DNA of 64,000 nt from Microbacterium hibisci. Lineage in GTDB: Bacteria > Actinomycetota > Actinomycetes > Actinomycetales > Microbacteriaceae. The translations under genes were made by a program, and so were the position numbers. The notes below the pieces were generated by a model. That model saw only the letters and a list, made by a program, of their open reading frames with translations. It ran no database searches and was not told the origin of the DNA. The stretch is from positions 1 to 64,000 of the forward strand of contig NZ_JADIJC010000007.1 in assembly GCF_015278255.1 (NCBI RefSeq). The letters run 5' to 3'. This document shows, one piece after another, positions 26,686-35,236 of the stretch (position 1 is its first letter; every line of letters begins with the position of its first letter).

Positions 26686-28319
26686 GTGTGCTCGAGGTGC
26701 AGGGCCTGCGCGTGTCGTACCAGACGCGCGCCGGGCGCCGTGAGGTCGTCCACGGCGTCGACGTCTCGGTCGGCGAGGGCGAGGTCGCCGCGCTCGTGGG
26801 CGAGTCGGGTTCGGGCAAGTCGACGACGGCGCACGCCCTGATCGGCCTTCTCCCCGACGGCGGTCGCGTCGACGGCGGGTCGATCGCGGTCGGGGGCGTC
26901 GACATCACGGGGTGGAGCCAGAAGCGGCTGCGCGCGGTGCGCGGCGCGCAGGTCGGGCTCGTCCCGCAGGATCCCGTGTCGTCACTCGATCCGGTGCGCC
27001 CGATCGGCGTGCAGGTGGGCGAAGTCCTGCGGCTGCACGGTGTGCGGGATGCCGCGACCCGTCGTGCGCGCGTGCTCGAGCTGCTCGACCGGGTCGGTCT
27101 CGACGACCCGGCGCTGCGCGCCCGGCAGTACCCGCACGAGCTGTCGGGCGGCATGCGTCAGCGGGTGCTCATCGCCACCGCGATCGCGCTGCGACCGCGG
27201 CTGATCATCGCGGATGAGCCGACGAGCGCGCTCGACGCCACCGTGCAGCGACGCATCCTCGATCTCATCGACGACCTGCGGCGCGAAGAGGGCACGTCGG
27301 TGCTCCTGGTCACGCACGATCTCGGCGTGGCGGCCGACCGCGCGCAGCAGATCGTCGTGCTGAACCAGGGCCGGGTCGTCGAGCAGGGCCCGAGCGCCGG
27401 CATCCTGTCGTCACCGGTCGATCCGTACACGCGGCAGCTGCTGACCGACGCACCGGCCCTCACGACGTACGACTTCCGCCGCCCGGCCGCGCCGCTCTTC
27501 CTCCGGGACGCCGCGGCCGCCGGCGCGGAGAAGCCCTACGCCATCGAGGCGGAGGGCATCGTCAAGGAGTTCGCCGTGCACGGCCGAGGGCGTGAGCCGT
27601 TCCGCGCGGTGGACGAGGTGTCGTTCCAGGTGCGGCGCGGAACGACGCACGCGCTCGTGGGGGAGTCGGGTTCGGGAAAGACCACGACCGCCCGGCTCGT
27701 CACGCGCTTCCTGCAGCCGGACGCCGGACGCATCGAACTCGACGGCGCCGACATCGCCGGGTTGAAGGGCGAGGGTCTCCGTCAGCTCCGCCGCCGGGTT
27801 CAGCTGGTGTACCAGAACCCGTACTCGTCGCTCGACCCGCGCCAGAGCGTCGCGCAGATCGTGGCCGAGCCGCTGCACAACTTCCGCGAGGGCGCGCGCG
27901 CCGACCGGAGGACGCGCGCCGCCGAGCTGATCGATCGCGTCTCGCTGCCGGCCGACGTGCTCGAGCGCTCGCCGCGCGAGCTGTCGGGCGGTCAGCGGCA
28001 GCGTGTCGCGATCGCCCGCGCGCTCGCGATCCGCCCCGACGTCGTGGTGCTCGACGAGGCGGTCTCGGCGCTCGACGTCACGGTGCAGGCGCGCATCCTC
28101 GAGCTGCTGGAGTCGCTCCAGCAGGAGCTCGGGCTCACGTACCTCTTCATCTCGCACGACCTGGCGGTGGTGCGCCGCATCAGCCACACGGTCTCGGTGA
28201 TGCGGCGCGGCCGCGTCGTCGAGGCCGGCAGCACCGAGGACATCTTCACGTCTCCCGGCCATGACTACACGCGCGAGCTGCTGGCAGCCGTGCCCGGACG
28301 ATCGGAGGTCACGGCATGA
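26682..28319 (+). CDS. ABC transporter ATPase with two nucleotide-binding domains (DppD-DppF fusion)
   Basis: A 545-residue protein holding two complete ABC ATPase domains. Domain 1 (about 3-250) has Walker A GESGSGKST, signature LSGGMRQRV and LIIADEPTSALD. Domain 2 (about 285-530) has Walker A GESGSGKTT, signature LSGGQRQRV and VVLDEAVSALD. It powers the preceding permeases, so this importer, unlike the sugar systems in the window, is self-sufficient. The start overlaps the permease stop and the end overlaps the monooxygenase start. Confidence 0.93.
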   Translation: MSVLEVQGLRVSYQTRAGRREVVHGVDVSVGEGEVAALVGESGSGKSTTAHALIGLLPDGGRVDGGSIAVGGVDITGWSQKRLRAVRGAQVGLVPQDPVSSLDPVRPIGVQVGEVLRLHGVRDAATRRARVLELLDRVGLDDPALRARQYPHELSGGMRQRVLIATAIALRPRLIIADEPTSALDATVQRRILDLIDDLRREEGTSVLLVTHDLGVAADRAQQIVVLNQGRVVEQGPSAGILSSPVDPYTRQLLTDAPALTTYDFRRPAAPLFLRDAAAAGAEKPYAIEAEGIVKEFAVHGRGREPFRAVDEVSFQVRRGTTHALVGESGSGKTTTARLVTRFLQPDAGRIELDGADIAGLKGEGLRQLRRRVQLVYQNPYSSLDPRQSVAQIVAEPLHNFREGARADRRTRAAELIDRVSLPADVLERSPRELSGGQRQRVAIARALAIRPDVVVLDEAVSALDVTVQARILELLESLQQELGLTYLFISHDLAVVRRISHTVSVMRRGRVVEAGSTEDIFTSPGHDYTRELLAAVPGRSEVTA

Positions 28320-29398
28320 CCGTGCCGTCTCTCGCCTTCTTCACCCGCCTGCTGGATGCCGCCCCGTCCGGTCGGACCGATGAAGCGCCCGCCGCGGAGC
28401 GGTATCGGCACGCCACCGACCAGATCCGGCACGCCGAACGATTCGGCATCGGCCGAGCGTGGGTCGCGCAGCACCACTTCCGCGGGGCGGAGGGCGGACT
28501 CCCGGCGCCGTTCGTGTTCCTCGCGCACGTCGCGGCCGCGACGACCGAGATCCGGCTGGGCACCGGCGTCATCACGCTGCCGCTGGAGGATCCCGTGCGC
28601 GTGGCCGAAGACGCCGTGGTCGCCGATCTGCTCTCGGGCGGCCGGATCGACCTCGGCCTCGGCAGCGGCGGAACCCCGTCGTCGTTCGTCCCGTTCGGCC
28701 AGGACGTCTCGGCGAAGGCAGCCGTCTACGACCAGAAGCTCGAGGTCCTGATCGACGCGCTGTCCGGGCGCGAGATCGGCGGGGGCAACACGCTGTACCC
28801 CGATGCCTCGACGGCGCCGGGAGCGCCGCTGCGCGACCGGGTCTGGCAGGCGACCTTCTCGCCGGCGGGCGGCACCCGGGCGGGCGTGCCGGGTCACGGC
28901 CTGCTGCTGTCGCGCACCCAGCCGCGCCCGGCGGACGCCCCCGGAGCGACGCTCGCGGAGCTGCAGCATCCGATCATCGACCGCTACCTCGACGCGCTCC
29001 CTGCGGGCGCCGCGCCGCGGGTGACGGCATCCCGCACCGTCTTCGTCGCCGACGACCGGGCCGATGCGCTGCGGTTCGCCGAGGTGGGGCTGCGTCGCGG
29101 CGCCGAGGGCCTCCGCCGCGCGGGGCAGCATATCCCCGACGACACGCTGGACGACCTCATCGCCGCGACCGACACCCACCTCGGCACCCCCGAAGAGGTG
29201 GCGGCGTCGCTGGCGGCCGACACGACGCTGTCGCGCGCCACCGAGATCGCCTTCCAGGTCCATTCGGTGGATGCGCCGCACGACTTCGTGCTGCGGTCCA
29301 TCGAGCTGTTCGCCACCGAGGTGGCCCCGGCGCTCGGCTGGGGCGCGCGCGAACGCCCCCTCGAACCACTCGGCCGTCTCGGAAAGGAGACCCCATGA
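28316..29398 (+). CDS. FMN-dependent luciferase-like monooxygenase
   Basis: A 360-residue TIM-barrel flavoenzyme. Visible features are the RYRHATDQIRHAERFGIGRA helix, the AWVAQHHF segment, TEIRLGTGVITLPLEDPVRV and the GGRIDLGLGSGG flavin-phosphate loop. It resembles the KPN_01858-type family, remembered to co-occur with this kind of ABC transporter and with the two AhpD/CMD-type proteins that follow. It would oxidise the imported substrate with FMNH2 and O2. It overlaps both neighbours by 4 bp. Confidence 0.87.
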   Translation: MTVPSLAFFTRLLDAAPSGRTDEAPAAERYRHATDQIRHAERFGIGRAWVAQHHFRGAEGGLPAPFVFLAHVAAATTEIRLGTGVITLPLEDPVRVAEDAVVADLLSGGRIDLGLGSGGTPSSFVPFGQDVSAKAAVYDQKLEVLIDALSGREIGGGNTLYPDASTAPGAPLRDRVWQATFSPAGGTRAGVPGHGLLLSRTQPRPADAPGATLAELQHPIIDRYLDALPAGAAPRVTASRTVFVADDRADALRFAEVGLRRGAEGLRRAGQHIPDDTLDDLIAATDTHLGTPEEVAASLAADTTLSRATEIAFQVHSVDAPHDFVLRSIELFATEVAPALGWGARERPLEPLGRLGKETP

Positions 29399-30003
29399 CC
29401 ACCGCGACCATCGACGTCGTCGACGAGCTCGTCGGCGTGCGAGCCGGCGACGCGCTCGACGCGCTGCGCCGCCGCCGCCCCGTCACGCGTGAGCAGCTGC
29501 AGGCCAGCTACGACGCCCTCTTCGCCCCCGTCGACGACACGGCGTTCCCGCTGACCGAGCGCCTGCTCGTCGCCGCCTTCGCGACCCGTTCGACCGCCGA
29601 CGACGCCACCGCACGGTTCTACGCGGATGCCGCGCACGCCGCCGACGCCGAACGCGCGGCGATCGTCCTGGCCGAGGCATCCGCGACGGCGACCGCCGGC
29701 CCGTTCGGCGCGTACCGCGAGGAGGGACTGCGGGCAGAGAGCACAGACGGCCGCCGTTTCGAGCCCGGCACCTGTGCCCGCGAGGCGCTCGGCGCGCGGC
29801 TCACCGCGGCCCTCGCGCACGCGCACCTGCTCACCTTCCGGCCGCGCGAGGCGGACGGTGCCGACCAGGCGCGGCTGCTCGAGGCCGGCTGGAGCCCGGA
29901 CGGCATCGTCACGCTGTCGCAGCTCGTGTCGTTCCTCGCCTTCCAGCAGCGCGTCGCCACCGGGCTGCGCGCGATCGCCGCCACCCAGGAGGTCTCCGCA
30001 TGA
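29395..30003 (+). CDS. CMD-domain (AhpD-like) protein, first of a pair
   Basis: A 202-residue mostly helical protein. It resembles the Avi_7170-type CMD proteins: a DDTAFPLTERLLVAAFATRS segment near residues 47-66, then ARLTAALAHAHLLTFRPREA. It lacks the Cys-x-x-Cys seen in AhpD and in the next gene, so peroxidase activity by itself is doubtful. ATG at 29395 overlaps the upstream stop; a longer frame from 28459 is not real. The function is unknown, but strict association with the following AhpD-like gene suggests a heteromeric complex. Confidence 0.7.
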   Translation: MTTATIDVVDELVGVRAGDALDALRRRRPVTREQLQASYDALFAPVDDTAFPLTERLLVAAFATRSTADDATARFYADAAHAADAERAAIVLAEASATATAGPFGAYREEGLRAESTDGRRFEPGTCAREALGARLTAALAHAHLLTFRPREADGADQARLLEAGWSPDGIVTLSQLVSFLAFQQRVATGLRAIAATQEVSA

Positions 30004-30629
30004 CCGGCACCGCGACCGAACCCACGGTTCTGACCCACGACGAGGCTCACCCGCGGGTGTTCACGCGCGCCGAGGTGGGCTGGCTGCCGTGGCTCGAACC
30101 GCTGCCCGTCGACGAGCTCACCGAGCGCCACTACGACGGCCTCGTCGATCGCCAACGGGCCTCGAGCGACTACTTCCGGCTGCTCGCGCGCGACCCTGAG
30201 ATCCTCCGGGCCCGCACGCTCGTCGATAAGGACATCTTCTACAACACCGCCGAGGGTCTTCCGCGGGCGGAGCGCGAGCTCGCCGCGACCGCGGCCTCGC
30301 GGGTGAACGGCTGCGTCTTCTGCGCGTCGGTCCACGCGCGCTTCGCGGCCCACTACTCGAAGGAGCCCGATCTCGTCGACCGCCTGCTCGCCGAGGGCAT
30401 CGGCGCGGAGCTCGGGGAGCGATGGGACGCGATCGTCGCCGCCGCGGCGGCGCTCACCGCCACGCCGCTCGCCTTCGACGGATCCCACGTCGAGCGACTC
30501 CGCGCCGCCGGCCTCGACGACCTCGAGATCGCGGACGTCGTGCACGGTGCGGCCTTCTTCAACTGGGCGAACCGGCTGATGCTGTCGATCGGGCGACCGG
30601 TCGCCCCGCCTGAGGAGGGCGGGCGATGA
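30000..30629 (+). CDS. AhpD-like alkylhydroperoxidase domain protein
   Basis: A 209-residue helical protein with the AhpD core: LPRAERELAATAASRVNGC followed by VFCASVHARFA, giving a Cys-x-x-Cys pair at residues 105 and 108 and a downstream His at about 112, the proton-relay arrangement of AhpD. It resembles the Avi_7169-type family that pairs with the preceding CMD protein. It probably removes peroxide or reduces a sulfur/oxygen adduct formed by the flavin enzymes. ATGA overlaps both sides. Confidence 0.8.
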   Translation: MTGTATEPTVLTHDEAHPRVFTRAEVGWLPWLEPLPVDELTERHYDGLVDRQRASSDYFRLLARDPEILRARTLVDKDIFYNTAEGLPRAERELAATAASRVNGCVFCASVHARFAAHYSKEPDLVDRLLAEGIGAELGERWDAIVAAAAALTATPLAFDGSHVERLRAAGLDDLEIADVVHGAAFFNWANRLMLSIGRPVAPPEEGGR

Positions 30630-31201
30630 GCCGGGCGCTGAGAGTCGTCGGCGTCTCGGGCTCGCTGCACGAGCCGAGTCGCACGACCGCCCTCGTCCGC
30701 GCGATCGTCGCCGAGGTGGGATCGCACGTCGACATCGAGTCGACCGTGATCGAGGTGGCTGCGCTCGGGCCCGGCTTCGCCGGCGCGCTGCGCCGGGATC
30801 AGGTCTCGCCGGAGGTGGAGGAGGCCCTGCAGCTCATCGAGTCGGCCGACCTGCTCGTCGTGGGTTCACCGGTCTATCGCGCGTCGTTCACGGGGCTCTT
30901 CAAGCACCTCTTCGACTTCGTGGGGCAGTACGACCTGGTCGGCACCCCCGTGATCGTCGCGGCCACCGGCGGCGGCGAGCGGCACGCGCTCATCCTCGAG
31001 CACCAGCTGCGGCCGCTCTTCGGGTTCTTCCAGGCGCTGACGCTGCCTCTCGGGGTCTACGCCTCCGACTCCGACTTCGTCGACCACCGGCTCACGTCGC
31101 CCGACGTGCAGCGGCGGATCACGCAGACGGTGGGCCGCTCGCTCCCGATCGTCGAGCAGGCGCGATCGGTGAGCTCGTCGGAGTACGTCACCACCTGGTG
31201 A
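30626..31201 (+). CDS. NAD(P)H-dependent FMN reductase (MsuE/SsuE-like)
   Basis: A 191-residue flavodoxin-like reductase. The N-terminal phosphate loop reads GVSGSLHEPSRT, followed later by LLVVGSPVYRASFTGLFKHL and the ATGGGERHA loop, all typical of MsuE/SsuE reductases that feed FMNH2 to two-component monooxygenases. It is the last gene of the operon and probably supplies reduced flavin to the luciferase-like enzymes at 28316 and 21463. A hairpin follows the stop. Confidence 0.87.
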   Translation: MSRALRVVGVSGSLHEPSRTTALVRAIVAEVGSHVDIESTVIEVAALGPGFAGALRRDQVSPEVEEALQLIESADLLVVGSPVYRASFTGLFKHLFDFVGQYDLVGTPVIVAATGGGERHALILEHQLRPLFGFFQALTLPLGVYASDSDFVDHRLTSPDVQRRITQTVGRSLPIVEQARSVSSSEYVTTW

Positions 31202-31209
31202 CGGGAGAG

Positions 31210-31258
31210 CGGATGCCGCAGCCTGCGCGCGACGCGCCCGCGGGGGTCGCGGCATCCG
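31210..31258. terminator. Hairpin ending the organosulfur operon
   Basis: CGGATGCCGC at 31210-31219 pairs with GCGGCATCCG at 31249-31258. The 29-nt loop is itself GC-rich. It begins nine bases after the FMN reductase stop, so it likely ends that transcript before the cystathionine promoter. Confidence 0.55.
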
Positions 31259-31262
31259 TCTC

Positions 31263-31292
31263 TCGACGTCGTCCCCGTCCAGCGTCTAGACT
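31263..31292 (+). promoter_or_regulatory. Probable promoter of the leader/cystathionine operon
   Basis: TCGACG (31263-31268) matches four of six bases of a -35 box. An 18-bp spacer leads to TAGACT (31287-31292), a good actinobacterial -10. A start about seven bases later falls at base 31300, exactly on the GTG of the leader peptide, so the leader would be translated from a leaderless mRNA. Confidence 0.5.
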
Positions 31293-31299
31293 CGTGCCC

Positions 31300-31335
31300 G
31301 TGTTGACCTGTCGGTGTTGTCGCCCTTGCTGTTGA
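31300..31335 (+). CDS. Cysteine-rich leader peptide (putative attenuator uORF)
   Basis: A tiny frame GTG-TTG-ACC-TGT-CGG-TGT-TGT-CGC-CCT-TGC-TGT-TGA encodes MLTCRCCRPCC: 11 residues, five of them Cys, in a region otherwise poor in Cys codons. An in-frame GTG at 31294 could add two residues. It lies 76 bp before the cystathionine beta-synthase start. Poly-Cys leaderless uORFs that sense Cys-tRNA supply are known upstream of cysteine genes in mycobacteria. By analogy, slow translation of the Cys codons under cysteine shortage would alter the folding of the leader RNA and raise downstream expression. The call is from the reading frame and context only. Confidence 0.75.
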   Translation: MLTCRCCRPCC

Positions 31336-31347
31336 AGCGCTCGCTTC
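31334..31347 (+). promoter_or_regulatory. Small hairpin overlapping the leader-peptide stop codon
   Basis: GAAGCG at 31334-31339 pairs with CGCTTC at 31342-31347 with the loop CT. The hairpin starts inside the TGA stop of the leader peptide, so a ribosome stalled on the Cys codons or terminating there would melt it. It is a candidate part of the attenuation switch. An anti-Shine-Dalgarno-like ACCTCC follows near 31354. Confidence 0.45.
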
Positions 31348-31411
31348 ACGAAGACCTCCGCGACCCCGACAGCCTTCCGCGCACCCGCGCGGCGACACAC
31401 CAGGACACAAC

Positions 31412-32473
31412 GTGCGTTACGCCCAGAGCGTGGCCGACCTCGTCGGCAACACCCCCCTCGTCCAGCTGACCCGCGTCACCGACGGCATCGCCGCGACGGT
31501 GCTCGCGAAGGTCGAGTACTTCAACCCCGGCAGCTCCGCGAAGGATCGCATCGCCCGCCGCATCATCGATCAGGCGGAACGCGACGGGCACCTGAAGCCC
31601 GGCGGCACGATCGTCGAGCCGACGAGCGGCAACACCGGCGTGGGACTCGCGCTGGTCGCCGTGCAGCGCGGCTACCGCATGATCTTCGTCGTGCCCGACA
31701 AGTTCGCCGGCGCCAAGGTTGACGTGCTGCGGGCCTACGGCGCGGAGGTCGTCGTGACCGACACCAGCGTTCCGCCGGAGGATCCGCGGTCGTACTACAG
31801 CGTGTCGGACCGCCTCGTCCGCGAGATCCCCGGGGCGTACAAGCCCAACCAGTTCGCCAACCCGAACGGGCCCCTCAGCCACTACGAGACGACCGGCCCG
31901 GAGATCTGGCGCGACACCGAGGGCCGGGTGACGCACTTCGTCGCCGGCATCGGCACGGGCGGCACTATCACGGGCACCGGGCGGTATCTGCACGAGGTGT
32001 CGAACGGCGCGGTGCGCGTGGTCGGGGCCGACCCCGAAGGCTCGATCTACTCCGGCGGCCCCATCCACGGCTACCTGGTCGAGGGGGCGGGCGAGGACTT
32101 CTGGCCCGACAGCTACGACGCGACCGTCCCCGACGAGATCCACCGCATCCCCGACGCCGAGACCTTCGCGATGACCCGGCGCCTCGCCCGCGAGGAAGGC
32201 CTGCTCGTCGGCGGCTCGAGCGGCATGGCCGTGGTCGCCGCACTGCGCACCGCGCGCGACCTGCCCGCCGACGCCGTCGTCGTGGTGCTGCTGCCCGACC
32301 ACGGTCGCGGCTACCTCAACCGGTTCTACGACGACGGCTGGATGCGCGACCACGGCTTCGACGTCGCCGACCCCGCACCCGGCGCTGCGCCCGCGGCCAC
32401 GGCTCACGACGCACCCGGCGCACACCCCGCGGGCGAGGCATCCGTCACCCCCACCGAAGGAGCACCCGCATGA
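31412..32473 (+). CDS. Cystathionine beta-synthase (PLP-dependent)
   Basis: A 353-residue fold-type II PLP enzyme that would condense serine (or O-acetylserine) with homocysteine to cystathionine. The catalytic Lys is K44 in GSSAKDRIA. The phosphate-binding loop TSGNTGVGLA is at 71-80 and GIGTGGTITG grips the cofactor. There are no C-terminal CBS domains and no N-terminal haem domain; the C-terminus is an Ala/Pro-rich tail of about 35 residues. Cysteine synthase activity is an alternative. The GTG start at 31412 has only a weak AGGA site, consistent with control by the leader. It overlaps the next gene by 4 bp. Confidence 0.85.
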   Translation: MRYAQSVADLVGNTPLVQLTRVTDGIAATVLAKVEYFNPGSSAKDRIARRIIDQAERDGHLKPGGTIVEPTSGNTGVGLALVAVQRGYRMIFVVPDKFAGAKVDVLRAYGAEVVVTDTSVPPEDPRSYYSVSDRLVREIPGAYKPNQFANPNGPLSHYETTGPEIWRDTEGRVTHFVAGIGTGGTITGTGRYLHEVSNGAVRVVGADPEGSIYSGGPIHGYLVEGAGEDFWPDSYDATVPDEIHRIPDAETFAMTRRLAREEGLLVGGSSGMAVVAALRTARDLPADAVVVVLLPDHGRGYLNRFYDDGWMRDHGFDVADPAPGAAPAATAHDAPGAHPAGEASVTPTEGAPA

Positions 32474-33630
32474 CCGAGCCCACGAGCGACCGCGGCTTCG
32501 AGACCCGGGCGGTGCACGCCGGGCAGGCGTTCGACCCCACGACCGGCGCGGTCATCCCGCCGGTGCACTTCTCGACGACGTACGCGCAGGACGGCATCGG
32601 CGGGCTGCGCGAAGGGTACGAGTACGGTCGCAGCGGCAACCCGACGCGCACCGCGCTCGAGACGCAGCTCGCGGCGCTCGAGGGCGGCGCGCACGCGCTG
32701 TCGTTCGCCTCCGGCCTCGCTGCCGAGGATGCACTGCTGCGTGCGGCGCTCAGCCCGGGCGAGGAGGTGCTGCTCGGCAGCGACGTCTACGGCGGCACCT
32801 ACCGTCTCATCGCGCGCGTGCTGGGGGCATGGGGCATCGGCGTGCGAGTGGTCGACATGAGCGACCTCGACGCCGTGCGCGCGGCGCTCGAGGAGCGGCC
32901 GGCGCGCATCGTGTGGGTCGAGACCCCCAGCAACCCGCTGCTGCGCATCACCGACATCGCCGGTCTCGCCCGGCTCGGCCACGATGCCGGCGCCCTCGTC
33001 GTGGTGGACAACACCTTCGCCTCGCCCGCGCTGCAGCAGCCGCTCGCGCTCGGCGCCGACGTCGTGGTGCACTCCACCACCAAGTACCTGGGCGGCCACT
33101 CCGACGTCGTCGGCGGCGCCCTCGTGCTGAACGACGACGCCCTCTACGAGCAGGCGAAGTTCCTGCAGTTCGCCGTCGGCGCGGTCTCGGGCCCGCTCGA
33201 CGCGTGGCTCACCACGCGGGGCATCAAGACGCTCGCCCTGCGCATGCAGCGGCACAGCGAGAACGCCCAGGCGGTCGCCGAGTTCCTCGACGGCCACGCG
33301 GCCGTCTCGCGCGTCTACTACCCCGGGCTCGCGTCGCACCCCGGTCACGCGCTCGCGGCCACGCAGATGAGCGGGTTCGGCGGCATCGTGTCGGTCGCAC
33401 TGGCGGACGCGGCATCCGCCCGTCGCTTCGCCGAGTCCACGCGGCTGTTCCAGCTCGCCGAGTCGCTCGGCGGCGTCGAGTCGCTCATGAACTACCCCGA
33501 CGCGATGACCCACGCGTCGGTGCGCGGCACCGAGCTCGCCGTCCCGCCGGAGGTCGTGCGCCTGTCGGTCGGCATCGAGTCCGCCGCCGACCTCATCGCC
33601 GACCTCGACGAGGCGCTCGCCGGGCTCTGA
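32470..33630 (+). CDS. Cystathionine gamma-synthase/lyase (Cys/Met metabolism PLP enzyme)
   Basis: A 386-residue fold-type I PLP enzyme of the transsulfuration family. Features are GFETRAVHAGQAFDPTTGAV at the start, EYGRSGNPTRTALE, SFASGLAAEDA, the WVETPSNPLLRITDI stretch, and the PLP-binding Lys 205 in STTKYLGGHSD. The C-terminus ends with LSVGIESAADLIADL. Next to cystathionine beta-synthase it most simply completes reverse transsulfuration (homocysteine to cysteine) as a gamma-lyase, but gamma-synthase activity cannot be excluded. It is coupled by ATGA overlap and should share the cysteine-responsive leader. Confidence 0.9.
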   Translation: MTEPTSDRGFETRAVHAGQAFDPTTGAVIPPVHFSTTYAQDGIGGLREGYEYGRSGNPTRTALETQLAALEGGAHALSFASGLAAEDALLRAALSPGEEVLLGSDVYGGTYRLIARVLGAWGIGVRVVDMSDLDAVRAALEERPARIVWVETPSNPLLRITDIAGLARLGHDAGALVVVDNTFASPALQQPLALGADVVVHSTTKYLGGHSDVVGGALVLNDDALYEQAKFLQFAVGAVSGPLDAWLTTRGIKTLALRMQRHSENAQAVAEFLDGHAAVSRVYYPGLASHPGHALAATQMSGFGGIVSVALADAASARRFAESTRLFQLAESLGGVESLMNYPDAMTHASVRGTELAVPPEVVRLSVGIESAADLIADLDEALAGL

Positions 33631-33676
33631 CGCGCCCCCTGAACCGCCCGGGGAGGGCGGTGGCTACGCTGGGGCC

Positions 33677-35236
33677 GTGGAACCGGTCACGGCAACGCTC
33701 GTCATCCTGGTGCTCGCGGTGATCGCCTTCGTGAGCAATCGCGTGCCGATCGGGATCGTCGCGATCGGCGTCGCGCTCGCCCTCTTCTTCACCGGCGTGC
33801 TCACGCTGCCCGAGGCGCTCGCCGGGTTCGGCGATCCGACGGTGCTGTTCATCGCGGGCCTCTTCGTCATGAGCGAGGCGCTGGATGCGACCGGGGTGAC
33901 CGCGTGGGCGGGACAGATGGTCATCGGGCGGGCGGGCACCAAGCCCGCGACGCTCCTCATCGTGATCTCGCTCCTCGTCGCGGGGCTGACCGCGCTCATC
34001 AGCATCAACGGCGCGGTCGCGGCGCTGCTGCCGCTCGTGGTCGTCGTGGCCGCGCGCGCCGGCATCGCGCCGTCGAAACTGCTCATGCCGCTCGCGTTCG
34101 CGGCATCCGCGGGCTCGCTGCTCCTCCTCACCGGCACGCCCGTGAACATCCTGGTGTCGGAGTTCGCCGCCGCGGCCGGCGGACGAGAGTTCGGGTACTT
34201 CGAGTTCGCGCTGGTCGGCGTGCCCCTCGTGCTCGGGACGATCGTCATCCTGCTCGTCGGCGGCCGGCTGGTGCCCGAGCGCCAGGGCGCGCTCATGCCC
34301 ACCGACCTCGTGCGGCACGCGAGGGTGCTCCGGCAGCAGTACTCGCTCACGCTCGACACCGGCACCCTGCTCGGGCCGAACAGGGGCGTCACCGAGGTCG
34401 TCGTCGCGCCGCGGTCGCCGCTCATCGGCAAGCGCGTATGCGCGGGCATGACGACGCCCGACGGCGACCTCGTCGTGCTCGCGGCGCGTCGCGGCGACGA
34501 GCACCTCAAGGGCACCGAGTTCGTGGTGCAGGCCGGTGACGCGCTGCTGCTGCAGGGCACCTGGGACGACCTCTCGCGGCGCACCAGCGACCCGGCCGTG
34601 CTCGTGGTGGACGACCCCGCGCAGCTGCGCCGCTCGGTGCCGCTCGGGCGCGGTGCGAAGCGCGCGATCGGCATCCTGCTCGTGATGGTGGTGCTGCTAG
34701 CGACCGGTCTCGTGCCGCCGGCTGTGGCGGCCCTGCTGGCGGCGTGCGCCCTCGTGCTCACCCGCACGGTCACGGTGACTCAGGCCTACCACTCGATCTC
34801 GTGGACCACCATCGTGCTCATCGCCGGGATGATCCCGCTGTCGACCGCATTCACCGCCACAGGCACCGCCGACCTCGTGGCGGGGTGGATGCTGTCGCTC
34901 CTCGGCGACGCCGGGCCGCACGCCGCCCTGCTCGCCCTCTGCGGGCTGACGGTTGTGCTGGGTCAGCTCATCAGCAACACCGCGACGGTGCTCATCGTCG
35001 CGCCCATCGCGATCTCGGTCGCCCAGTCGCTCGATCTGTCGGTGCAGCCGTTCATGATGGCGCTGACCGTGGCCGGTGCGGCCGCCTTCCTGACGCCGAT
35101 CGCGACGCCCGCGAACCTCATGGTCATGGAGCCGGGAGGCTACCGGTTCGGCGACTACTGGAAGCTCGGCCTGCCGCTGGTGGTGTTCTTCGTCGTCGTC
35201 GCCGTCTTCTACGTGCCGCTCGTCTGGCCCTTCTGA
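33677..35236 (+). CDS. SLC13-family anion permease with RCK_C domain
   Basis: A 519-residue membrane protein with about 11 spans. Two half-transporters (residues about 1-180 and 330-519) flank a cytoplasmic RCK_C/TrkA-C-type domain around residues 225-305 (RGVTEVVVAPRSPLIGKRV and EFVVQAGDALLLQG). The inverted repeats SINGAVAALLPLVV and ISNTATVLIVAPIAI mark the DASS/SLC13 fold. Relatives carry dicarboxylates, phosphate or sulfate. Given the sulfur genes just upstream, sulfate is plausible but inferred. Start at GTG 33677, 46 bp after the gamma-enzyme, so it may be part of the same unit. Confidence 0.85.
   Translation: MEPVTATLVILVLAVIAFVSNRVPIGIVAIGVALALFFTGVLTLPEALAGFGDPTVLFIAGLFVMSEALDATGVTAWAGQMVIGRAGTKPATLLIVISLLVAGLTALISINGAVAALLPLVVVVAARAGIAPSKLLMPLAFAASAGSLLLLTGTPVNILVSEFAAAAGGREFGYFEFALVGVPLVLGTIVILLVGGRLVPERQGALMPTDLVRHARVLRQQYSLTLDTGTLLGPNRGVTEVVVAPRSPLIGKRVCAGMTTPDGDLVVLAARRGDEHLKGTEFVVQAGDALLLQGTWDDLSRRTSDPAVLVVDDPAQLRRSVPLGRGAKRAIGILLVMVVLLATGLVPPAVAALLAACALVLTRTVTVTQAYHSISWTTIVLIAGMIPLSTAFTATGTADLVAGWMLSLLGDAGPHAALLALCGLTVVLGQLISNTATVLIVAPIAISVAQSLDLSVQPFMMALTVAGAAAFLTPIATPANLMVMEPGGYRFGDYWKLGLPLVVFFVVVAVFYVPLVWPF

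Follow-up and report, generated by a model that had tools for sequence, protein, structure and literature searches.

The locus examined here raises the question of whether, and by what means, a very short cysteine-rich reading frame governs the cystathionine genes that follow it in Microbacterium hibisci. The analysis covered a stretch of 64,000 nucleotides (contig NZ_JADIJC010000007.1, positions 1 to 64,000), which is referred to as the window. A first-pass annotation had placed a poly-cysteine frame of 11 codons at 31300-31335, a TAGACT −10 box ending 7 nt before its GTG, and a hairpin at 31334-31347 that starts inside the stop codon. Re-reading of the sequence confirmed the position and peptide of the frame as well as the box and its spacing; the hairpin exists, but it spans 31333-31348. 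As judged from comparison and folding of related leaders, we consider it likely that this element is a cysteine-responsive attenuating (ribosome-stalling) leader of an operon encoding cystathionine β-synthase (CBS) and a cystathionine γ-enzyme (CGL). The features to which the text refers are the following.

31263-31268, plus strand: −35-like TCGACG, 18 nt upstream of the −10 box (read from the sequence)
31287-31292, plus strand: −10 box TAGACT, with a TAnnnT geometry that is kept in relatives
31293-31299, plus strand: spacer of 7 nt between the −10 box and the GTG
31300-31335, plus strand: poly-cysteine upstream open reading frame (uORF) MLTCRCCRPCC, with GTG at 31300 and TGA at 31333-31335
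31308-31313, plus strand: predicted outer part of the 5′ strand of helix P1 (CTGTCG), over the first core Cys codon (folding, covariation alignments)
31319-31323, plus strand: predicted inner part of the 5′ strand of P1 (GTCGC), third core Cys codon plus Arg (folding, covariation alignments)
31333-31348, plus strand: predicted hairpin P2 (TGAAGC-GCTC-GCTTCA), which includes the uORF stop codon (sequence, folding)
31360-31372, plus strand: predicted anti-Cys strand of P1, GCGACCCCGACAG (folding, fitted alignment)
31377-31392, plus strand: predicted hairpin P3, CCGCGC-ACCC-GCGCGG, upstream of the CBS ribosome site (covariation)
31402-31405, plus strand: Shine-Dalgarno (SD) sequence AGGA of CBS (read from the sequence)
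31412-32473, plus strand: CBS gene, 353 aa, PLP domain only (TIGR01137, PF00291)
32470-33630, plus strand: cystathionine γ-enzyme gene, overlapping the CBS stop by ATGA (PF01053)

The uORF specifies M-L-T-C-R-C-C-R-P-C-C, in which five of the 11 codons are for Cys, and it ends 76 nt before the start of the CBS gene. Its start codon is predicted to lie at, or to adjoin, the 5′ end of the RNA. CTCGACG is found at the place of the −35-like element in near relatives, for example at loci L003 and L004, and a scan for the sigma-70 consensus called no promoter at the uORF. A longer peptide could begin at an in-frame GTG at 31294, although this codon is only 1 nt past the −10 box and is missing from the nearest relatives (L003-L006). 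To find such frames we used a fixed rule, namely a start codon with a TAnnnT 5-9 nt upstream of it and an ORF of at most 26 codons containing CC, CxC or three Cys. On both strands of the window, the sole match to this rule was the site at 31300, and a TAnnnT at 5-9 nt preceded only 3 of the 1239 GTGs on its plus strand. The exact frame MLTCRCCRPCC occurs once in the genome, as does the RNA model of the leader (E 1.1e-12; next-best 0.5). The pattern GTG-x-x-Cys-x-Cys-Cys was found at six places in this genome (4+2 matches; reversed control 2+4), among which only the known uORF had a TAnnnT 3-11 nt upstream. By the same fixed rule, no further uORFs were detected in the 1.5-kb flanks of ten loci with matches of the PAPS-reductase/cysD, sulfite-reductase or cysK-like type, and no Rfam covariance model matched positions 30900-32000 up to an E value of 1.

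The protein encoded directly downstream of the leader matched the catalytic portion of the CBS model TIGR01137, over positions 2-320 of 457, with 482 bits, under the cut-off of 510. Its only Pfam match was PF00291, and it carries no Bateman (CBS-pair) module. The second enzyme is presumably a γ-lyase in view of its pairing with CBS; its best NCBIfam model, NF005871 'cystathionine gamma-synthase' (632 bits; cut-off 513), counts against this assignment. The formation of cysteine from homocysteine and serine is the work of CBS and γ-lyase. It had been suggested that control by the uORF might extend to the SLC13 permease gene downstream, which our data do not support: this gene has a TACGCT of its own at 33665-33670, 6 nt before its GTG at 33677, and the fetched stretches held a homologue at no more than 6 of 67 other loci (stretches shorter than 4.7 kb account for 9 of the 67) and at 11 of the 57 motif-found loci described below. 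This SLC13/CitMHS-type permease gene (33665-33679 region) thus looks leaderless, with its own promoter, rather than like a member of the uORF-controlled operon. Upstream of the cysteine genes, positions 28316-31201 encode a KPN_01858-family FMN-dependent monooxygenase, an Avi_7169-type alkylhydroperoxidase-domain protein and an MsuE-like FMN reductase, a cluster that probably serves organosulfur scavenging. Between this cluster and the uORF promoter lies an inverted repeat at 31211-31257 (GGATGCCGC ... GCGGCATCC); it may end the upstream transcript, and the terminator scan made no call there.

With a frame of just 11 codons, a few Cys codons might have come together by chance. Conservation in relatives, whose absence the first-pass annotation had named among the outcomes that would refute its reading, was investigated. 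A 23-nt uORF motif, GTGNTGACCTGTCGNTGTTGTCG, was scanned over 84,980 species genomes with no promoter rule applied. This yielded 57 stretches, and in all 57 the motif was located 95-122 nt upstream of CBS. By their titles, 55 belonged to Microbacterium, one to a Microbacteriaceae bacterium and one to Planococcus; the latter (L084, Planococcus sp. APC 4015) carries the Microbacterium locus, and its label looks wrong. At all 57 loci a TAnnnT ended 6 nt (37 loci) or 7 nt (20 loci) before the GTG, the same two distances were found at 61 of 62 loci of our first locus set, and an SD-like motif before the uORF GTG was present at none of the 57. This promoter spacing is the geometry of leaderless transcripts, by which the 5′ end is predicted.

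In parallel, 295 genomes of the genus were searched, and a CBS match was obtained in 294. The genus sample comprised 109 CBS loci including that of the window, taken from the best-matching of the 294 genomes and hence not random. The fixed rule called a uORF at 90 of the 109 loci, compared with none in the 109 reverse complements and 0.05 expected from dinucleotide shuffles; three more (L058, L194, L204) were recognized by eye, and 16 loci had none. Since the rule demands a −10 box, the spacing in leaders called by it is partly circular, a limit from which the 57-stretch motif scan is free. Among 90 distinct leaders (L194 and L204 not included), the start-corrected uORFs had 8-11 codons with 2-5 Cys in every case; MLTCRCCR (35) and MLTCRCCRPCC (13) were the commonest peptides, and variants included MSLTCRCCR, MLTLRCCRR and MLTRRCCCR. 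Upstream of CBS and the γ-enzyme, the genus thus keeps the frame, its Cys content and a promoter spacing of the leaderless kind, and the outcome that would have spoken against the proposed leader, an absence of conservation, did not occur. Conservation together with the reverse-complement, shuffle and promoter-spacing controls refutes a chance origin, to which we assign practically no weight. At the 16 loci without a uORF (L054, L055, L056, L059, L063, L068, L163, L192, L195, L196, L197 and L199-L203), a TAnnnT was found 6-7 nt before the start of the full-length CBS gene itself (16/16). Here, the regulated leader has apparently been replaced by a leaderless CBS gene.

In the predicted folds of many leaders, nucleotides 9-14 and 20-23 of the uORF, which contain Cys codons, pair with a downstream CGAC...CGACAG to form P1. 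P1 encloses the stop-codon hairpin P2, and the GC hairpin P3 stands before the SD sequence of CBS. As drawn, these helices had mean pair probabilities of 0.48 (P1), 0.44 (P2) and 0.69 (P3) across 91 leaders; P2 of the window's clade was aligned as an insertion and equated with the P2 of other leaders by position. In the folding models of the same 91 leaders, pairing of the anti-Cys strand with the uORF amounted to 0.72 with the uORF free and to 0 with the uORF covered. The mean cost of freeing the uORF was 15.7 kcal/mol in 62 leaders versus 10.4 kcal/mol with shuffled downstream leaders; it exceeded the shuffled mean in 98% of them, with p <0.05 in 31 of the 62 and p 0.067 for the window's own leader. 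The same test on 17 leaders from other genera gave a mean z of 1.8, with 15 of 17 positive and 8 of 17 above 1.64. Folds of the GTG-TTG clade also paired GTGTTG with C(A/G)ACAC in an outer helix, which was dropped because inspection by eye showed no counterpart in the GTG-CTG clade.

Covariation was assessed in two alignments. The plain MAFFT alignment held 49 of the 51 leaders to which 8 codons had been assigned at that stage, L060 and L066 being the two left out; it omits 39 other leaders of the 90, and the structure was drawn on it by eye. Pairing holds in 82.8% of its cells, as compared with 29-51% for partners displaced by 1-3 columns, and 33 cells have changed on both sides versus 12.4 in shuffles. 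Two of the five measures were no better than shuffles: pairs with change on both sides numbered 7 versus 5.0 (a value reached by 62 of 500 shuffles; slid partners gave 7-11), and pair types numbered 19 versus 17.9 (180 of 500). Changes on both sides occurred in P2 and P3 only, with none in the ten pairs of P1, which hardly varies because the peptide is fixed. The model-fitted alignment comprised 92 matches from 93 sources (L204 was missed), of which 49 were the training set; it had 91 distinct rows, and it leans to the drawn structure by construction. In this alignment, changes on both sides were found in 17 of 22 pairs, five of the 17 being in P1, and 96 cells had changed on both sides versus 19.0 in shuffles (reached by 0 of 500). 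For P3, both-side changes occurred in 4 of 6 pairs in the plain and in 6 of 6 in the fitted alignment. P2 and P3 thus covary, while P1 does so in the model-fitted alignment only. In the main clade there is almost no variation in P1, but in the folds of leaders with altered uORFs the opposite strand differs too: CGC-TGT/CAGCGA in L037, CGT-TGT/CAACGAC in L044 and L051, and GTTGC/GCAAC in L061.

Within the P1 region of the uORFs Cys was encoded by TGT 256 times and by TGC twice, whereas in the C-terminal extension, outside P1, the counts were 12 and 22. Elsewhere, the ratio of TGT to TGC was 9:49 in the gene-like ORFs of the window and 0:58 in CBS genes. These counts are inflated by shared ancestry, and codons of the extension can fall in the P2 region; the contrast lies nevertheless within the same uORFs, and it argues that base pairing, and not decoding, constrains the wobble base of TGT. 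A preference for TGT as a slowly decoded codon is disfavoured, because the Cys codons of the extension are mostly TGC. Conceivably, the element could be a structured RNA or a promoter-proximal DNA element that acts without translation, the Cys frame being a by-product of TGTCG-type pairing repeats. The near-fixation of TGT in P1 is what a paired strand would demand, and P2 and P3 covary. However, the start, frame and stop are kept despite in-frame insertions, some clades extend the peptide with more Cys codons (PCC) that P1 does not cover, the Cys runs of other genera are encoded by different nucleotides, and the start codon sits 6-7 nt past TAnnnT. We therefore regard an untranslated element as improbable.

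The preferred reading, a cysteine-responsive stalling leader, would work as follows. RNA polymerase would start at or adjoining 31300, and a 70S ribosome would start on the 5′-terminal GTG, as the promoter geometry suggests. With ample charged tRNA-Cys, this ribosome would clear the Cys codons and exit at the stop codon; the freed uORF RNA would pair with the anti-Cys strand in P1, and P2 would take up the stop codon. Under cysteine shortage, a ribosome waiting on the Cys codons would block P1, the anti-Cys strand would stay open and expression of the operon would go up. Stalling on the Cys codons must break P1, because one of its strands is then inside the ribosome. Comparison of the leaders shows that the frame, the Cys codons, the promoter geometry and the complementarity of P1 are conserved and that P2 and P3 covary; that the uORF is translated, that ribosomes stall on it, which way the operon responds and how the output is produced are what we infer. 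P1 would thus be the switch for cysteine sensing by stalling, with the output lying between translation and early termination. No terminator-like site was called in 31000-31700, where an intrinsic terminator with a U tract, as in a classical trp-type attenuator, was looked for; an output at translation or at early, possibly Rho-dependent, termination is more likely than one at an intrinsic terminator. Folding revealed no conserved new partner within the leader for the freed anti-Cys strand, which pairs at 0.26 with the start of the CBS coding sequence, a segment that is conserved for protein.

One form that the output could take is translational attenuation, in which the uORF pairs with the SD region of CBS and masks its ribosome site unless a ribosome is stalled. 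This is reportedly the model for the mycobacterial poly-cysteine uORF (Canestrari et al. 2020), where the stalled ribosome is said to free the masked ribosome site of the next gene. In 62 Microbacterium leaders, opening of the region −20 to +15 was on average 0.8 kcal/mol cheaper with the uORF covered (cheaper by >0.5 in 35 of the 62, dearer in 15; for −35 to +15, 37 and 17). However, opening of −14 to +3 was not cheaper (mean −0.2; 16 cheaper and 26 dearer), and in the same number of leaders the mean unpaired probability of the SD was 0.376 with the uORF free versus 0.370 with it covered. Among 90 Microbacterium leaders, covering the uORF freed the SD by >0.3 in five and closed it in five, and pairing of the SD with the uORF exceeded 0.5 in 24, with a mean of 0.30 that is under the value for shuffled uORFs (0.44). 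The folds from other genera were more favourable to masking: in 15 leaders (the 17 minus L133 and L135, where no SD was found), SD-uORF pairing exceeded 0.5 in ten, and stalling freed the SD by >0.3 in eight and closed it in none, although the shuffled-uORF control came close (0.48 vs 0.55). Direct pairing of the uORF with the CBS SD, through TCCTG, GTCCT or TTCCTG, is possible in L136, L137, L146, L149 and L155, a feature that most Microbacterium leaders lack. Lineages may, according to these models, differ in their output. The first-pass annotation had seen in this locus the principle of the mycobacterial leaders; this holds for the uORF and its geometry, while a masking output is at most weak in Microbacterium folding and clearer in 8 of the 15 leaders from other genera. 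On balance, masking is a possibility that we consider unlikely, though a serious one.

A second form is conditional Rho-dependent termination, in which the C-rich leader would be a loading site for Rho and the position of the ribosome on the uORF would decide. Between the uORF stop and the CBS start, the skew of C over G averaged 0.33 in 62 leaders (lowest 0.148), and the 0.32 of the window's own leader was reached by just 0.4% of the window's 76-nt stretches on both strands. Rho was also named as one possibility for leaders of mycobacteria, P. acnes and B. longum, in a prediction that its authors called 'rather weak' (Seliverstov et al. 2005, PMC1262725). On the other hand, P1-P3 leave little single strand when folded, so that the sign of simple Rho control would be wrong, the RNA being more open when the ribosome is stalled, and the skew was lower in other genera (0.05-0.30; 17 leaders). 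We consider the involvement of Rho rather doubtful.

Outside Microbacterium, a search of 150 genomes of the family provided 29 best-matching CBS loci from other Microbacteriaceae genera. A uORF was present at 14 of these, 12 by the fixed rule and two (L133, L146) by eye. The peptides differ yet keep the Cys run, as in MFLNCCCR, MNISRSCCRR, MSQLCCRR, MRLRLSCSCCPR and MSTVKSCCCCR, so that conservation reaches other genera of the family, where roughly one sampled CBS locus in two has a uORF of different sequence. Counting L133 and L146 as uORF-bearing, a TAnnnT at leaderless distance preceded the CBS gene itself at 9 of the 15 uORF-less loci from these genera. A class-wide search of 197 genomes, from which only the best matches were taken, gave 27 loci; the three with a uORF were all Microbacteriaceae, and the fixed rule called none at the 24 loci outside this family. 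The rule or the sample must miss some cases, since a Cys-run leader is predicted for B. longum cbs (PMC1262725). The earlier statement that the leader belongs to an actinobacterial family other than that of the mycobacterial ones is correct; a leader with a Cys run upstream of cbs had, however, been predicted for B. longum as early as 2005 in the same paper.

The presence of the uORF was related to the architecture of the CBS protein. Among the 109 genus loci, 92 of the 93 with a uORF encode a CBS without a Bateman-like C-terminus, whereas such a C-terminus is present at 16 of the 16 uORF-less loci; ten of the proteins were also checked against Pfam. The sole exception, L053, has a diverged Bateman-like C-terminus in which Pfam shows no CBS domain, and it lies near the base of the uORF clade in a quick midpoint-rooted tree of 106 of 165 loci. 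In other genera, the uORF and the Bateman module occur together at 15 of 17 uORF loci. On the tree the uORF needs 10 changes and the short CBS 3; the short form is thus essentially one lineage, with no repeated correlation. A repeated co-evolution of uORF and Bateman loss was rejected, as supported branches hold one independent pair and this is not a statistical result. The distribution is suggestive of an order of events in which the uORF came first and the Bateman module was lost later. In M. tuberculosis, removal of the module from CBS raised the basal activity and abolished the response to SAM (PMC9232105). One reading, speculative and in our view rather improbable, is that control of CBS in Microbacterium has moved from the enzyme to its mRNA: with the SAM-sensing Bateman module lost, supply would be governed by a ribosome that reads cysteine on a leaderless uORF of 8-11 codons, and the open strand of the Cys-codon/anti-Cys helix would be the output, for example as a landing site for a 30S subunit or Rho, with no masking of the ribosome site.

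The nearest known relatives of the proposed leader are the poly-cysteine leaderless short ORFs of mycobacteria, reportedly the subject of Canestrari et al. 2020 (Mol Microbiol 114:93). In both, a short ORF with a run of Cys codons opens a leaderless transcript (predicted in Microbacterium) ahead of genes of cysteine metabolism: the run of Cys codons is conserved in 90 of 90 leaders, and the uORF is the first ORF before cysteine-metabolism genes at 57 of 57 loci. The Microbacterium element differs in that it precedes CBS and the γ-enzyme, encodes MLTCRCCR(PCC) in 8-11 codons, and has a local anti-Cys strand and a stop-codon hairpin, while masking of the ribosome site is at most weak in folding. 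M. smegmatis poly-Cys uORFs were shown to act as attenuators in 2020, as cited in PMC9031893 and PMC13236596. The mycobacterial uORFs upstream of cysA2, nirA and Rv0485 described by Shell et al. 2015 (PMC4633059) are likewise Cys-rich and leaderless and lie before cysteine-metabolic or hypothetical genes. The genes differ from those in Microbacterium, and that study showed ribosome occupancy at the cysA2 locus and proposed attenuation. Cys-run leader peptides in actinobacteria, including the one before B. longum cbs, were predicted in 2005 (Seliverstov et al., PMC1262725); those leaders have in common with ours that there are no obvious terminators, and differ in that conserved helices were found here, in another family. 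An open-licence literature search gave no account of a cysteine leader peptide at cystathionine genes in Microbacterium, nor, judged by its listing, anything related on a cystathionine leader peptide in Bifidobacterium; broader queries gave no title that dealt with Microbacterium.

To judge from searches of the open-licence literature, the genus-wide occurrence of the element, the conservation of its helices, the double role of its Cys codons and its tie to a Bateman-less CBS are new. The 2005 prediction lacked conserved RNA helices; these are supplied here, and the sensor codons themselves are complementary to the opposite strand of the putative switch. The two duties of the Cys codons, their meaning and their base pairing, are separable by mutation, and the mechanism is thereby directly testable. 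If true, the uORF together with the loss of the SAM-sensing module is a testable case of regulation shifting from a protein to a leader RNA. With this leader, cysteine sensing by ribosomes would extend to a large genus of environmental bacteria and to its reverse transsulfuration genes.
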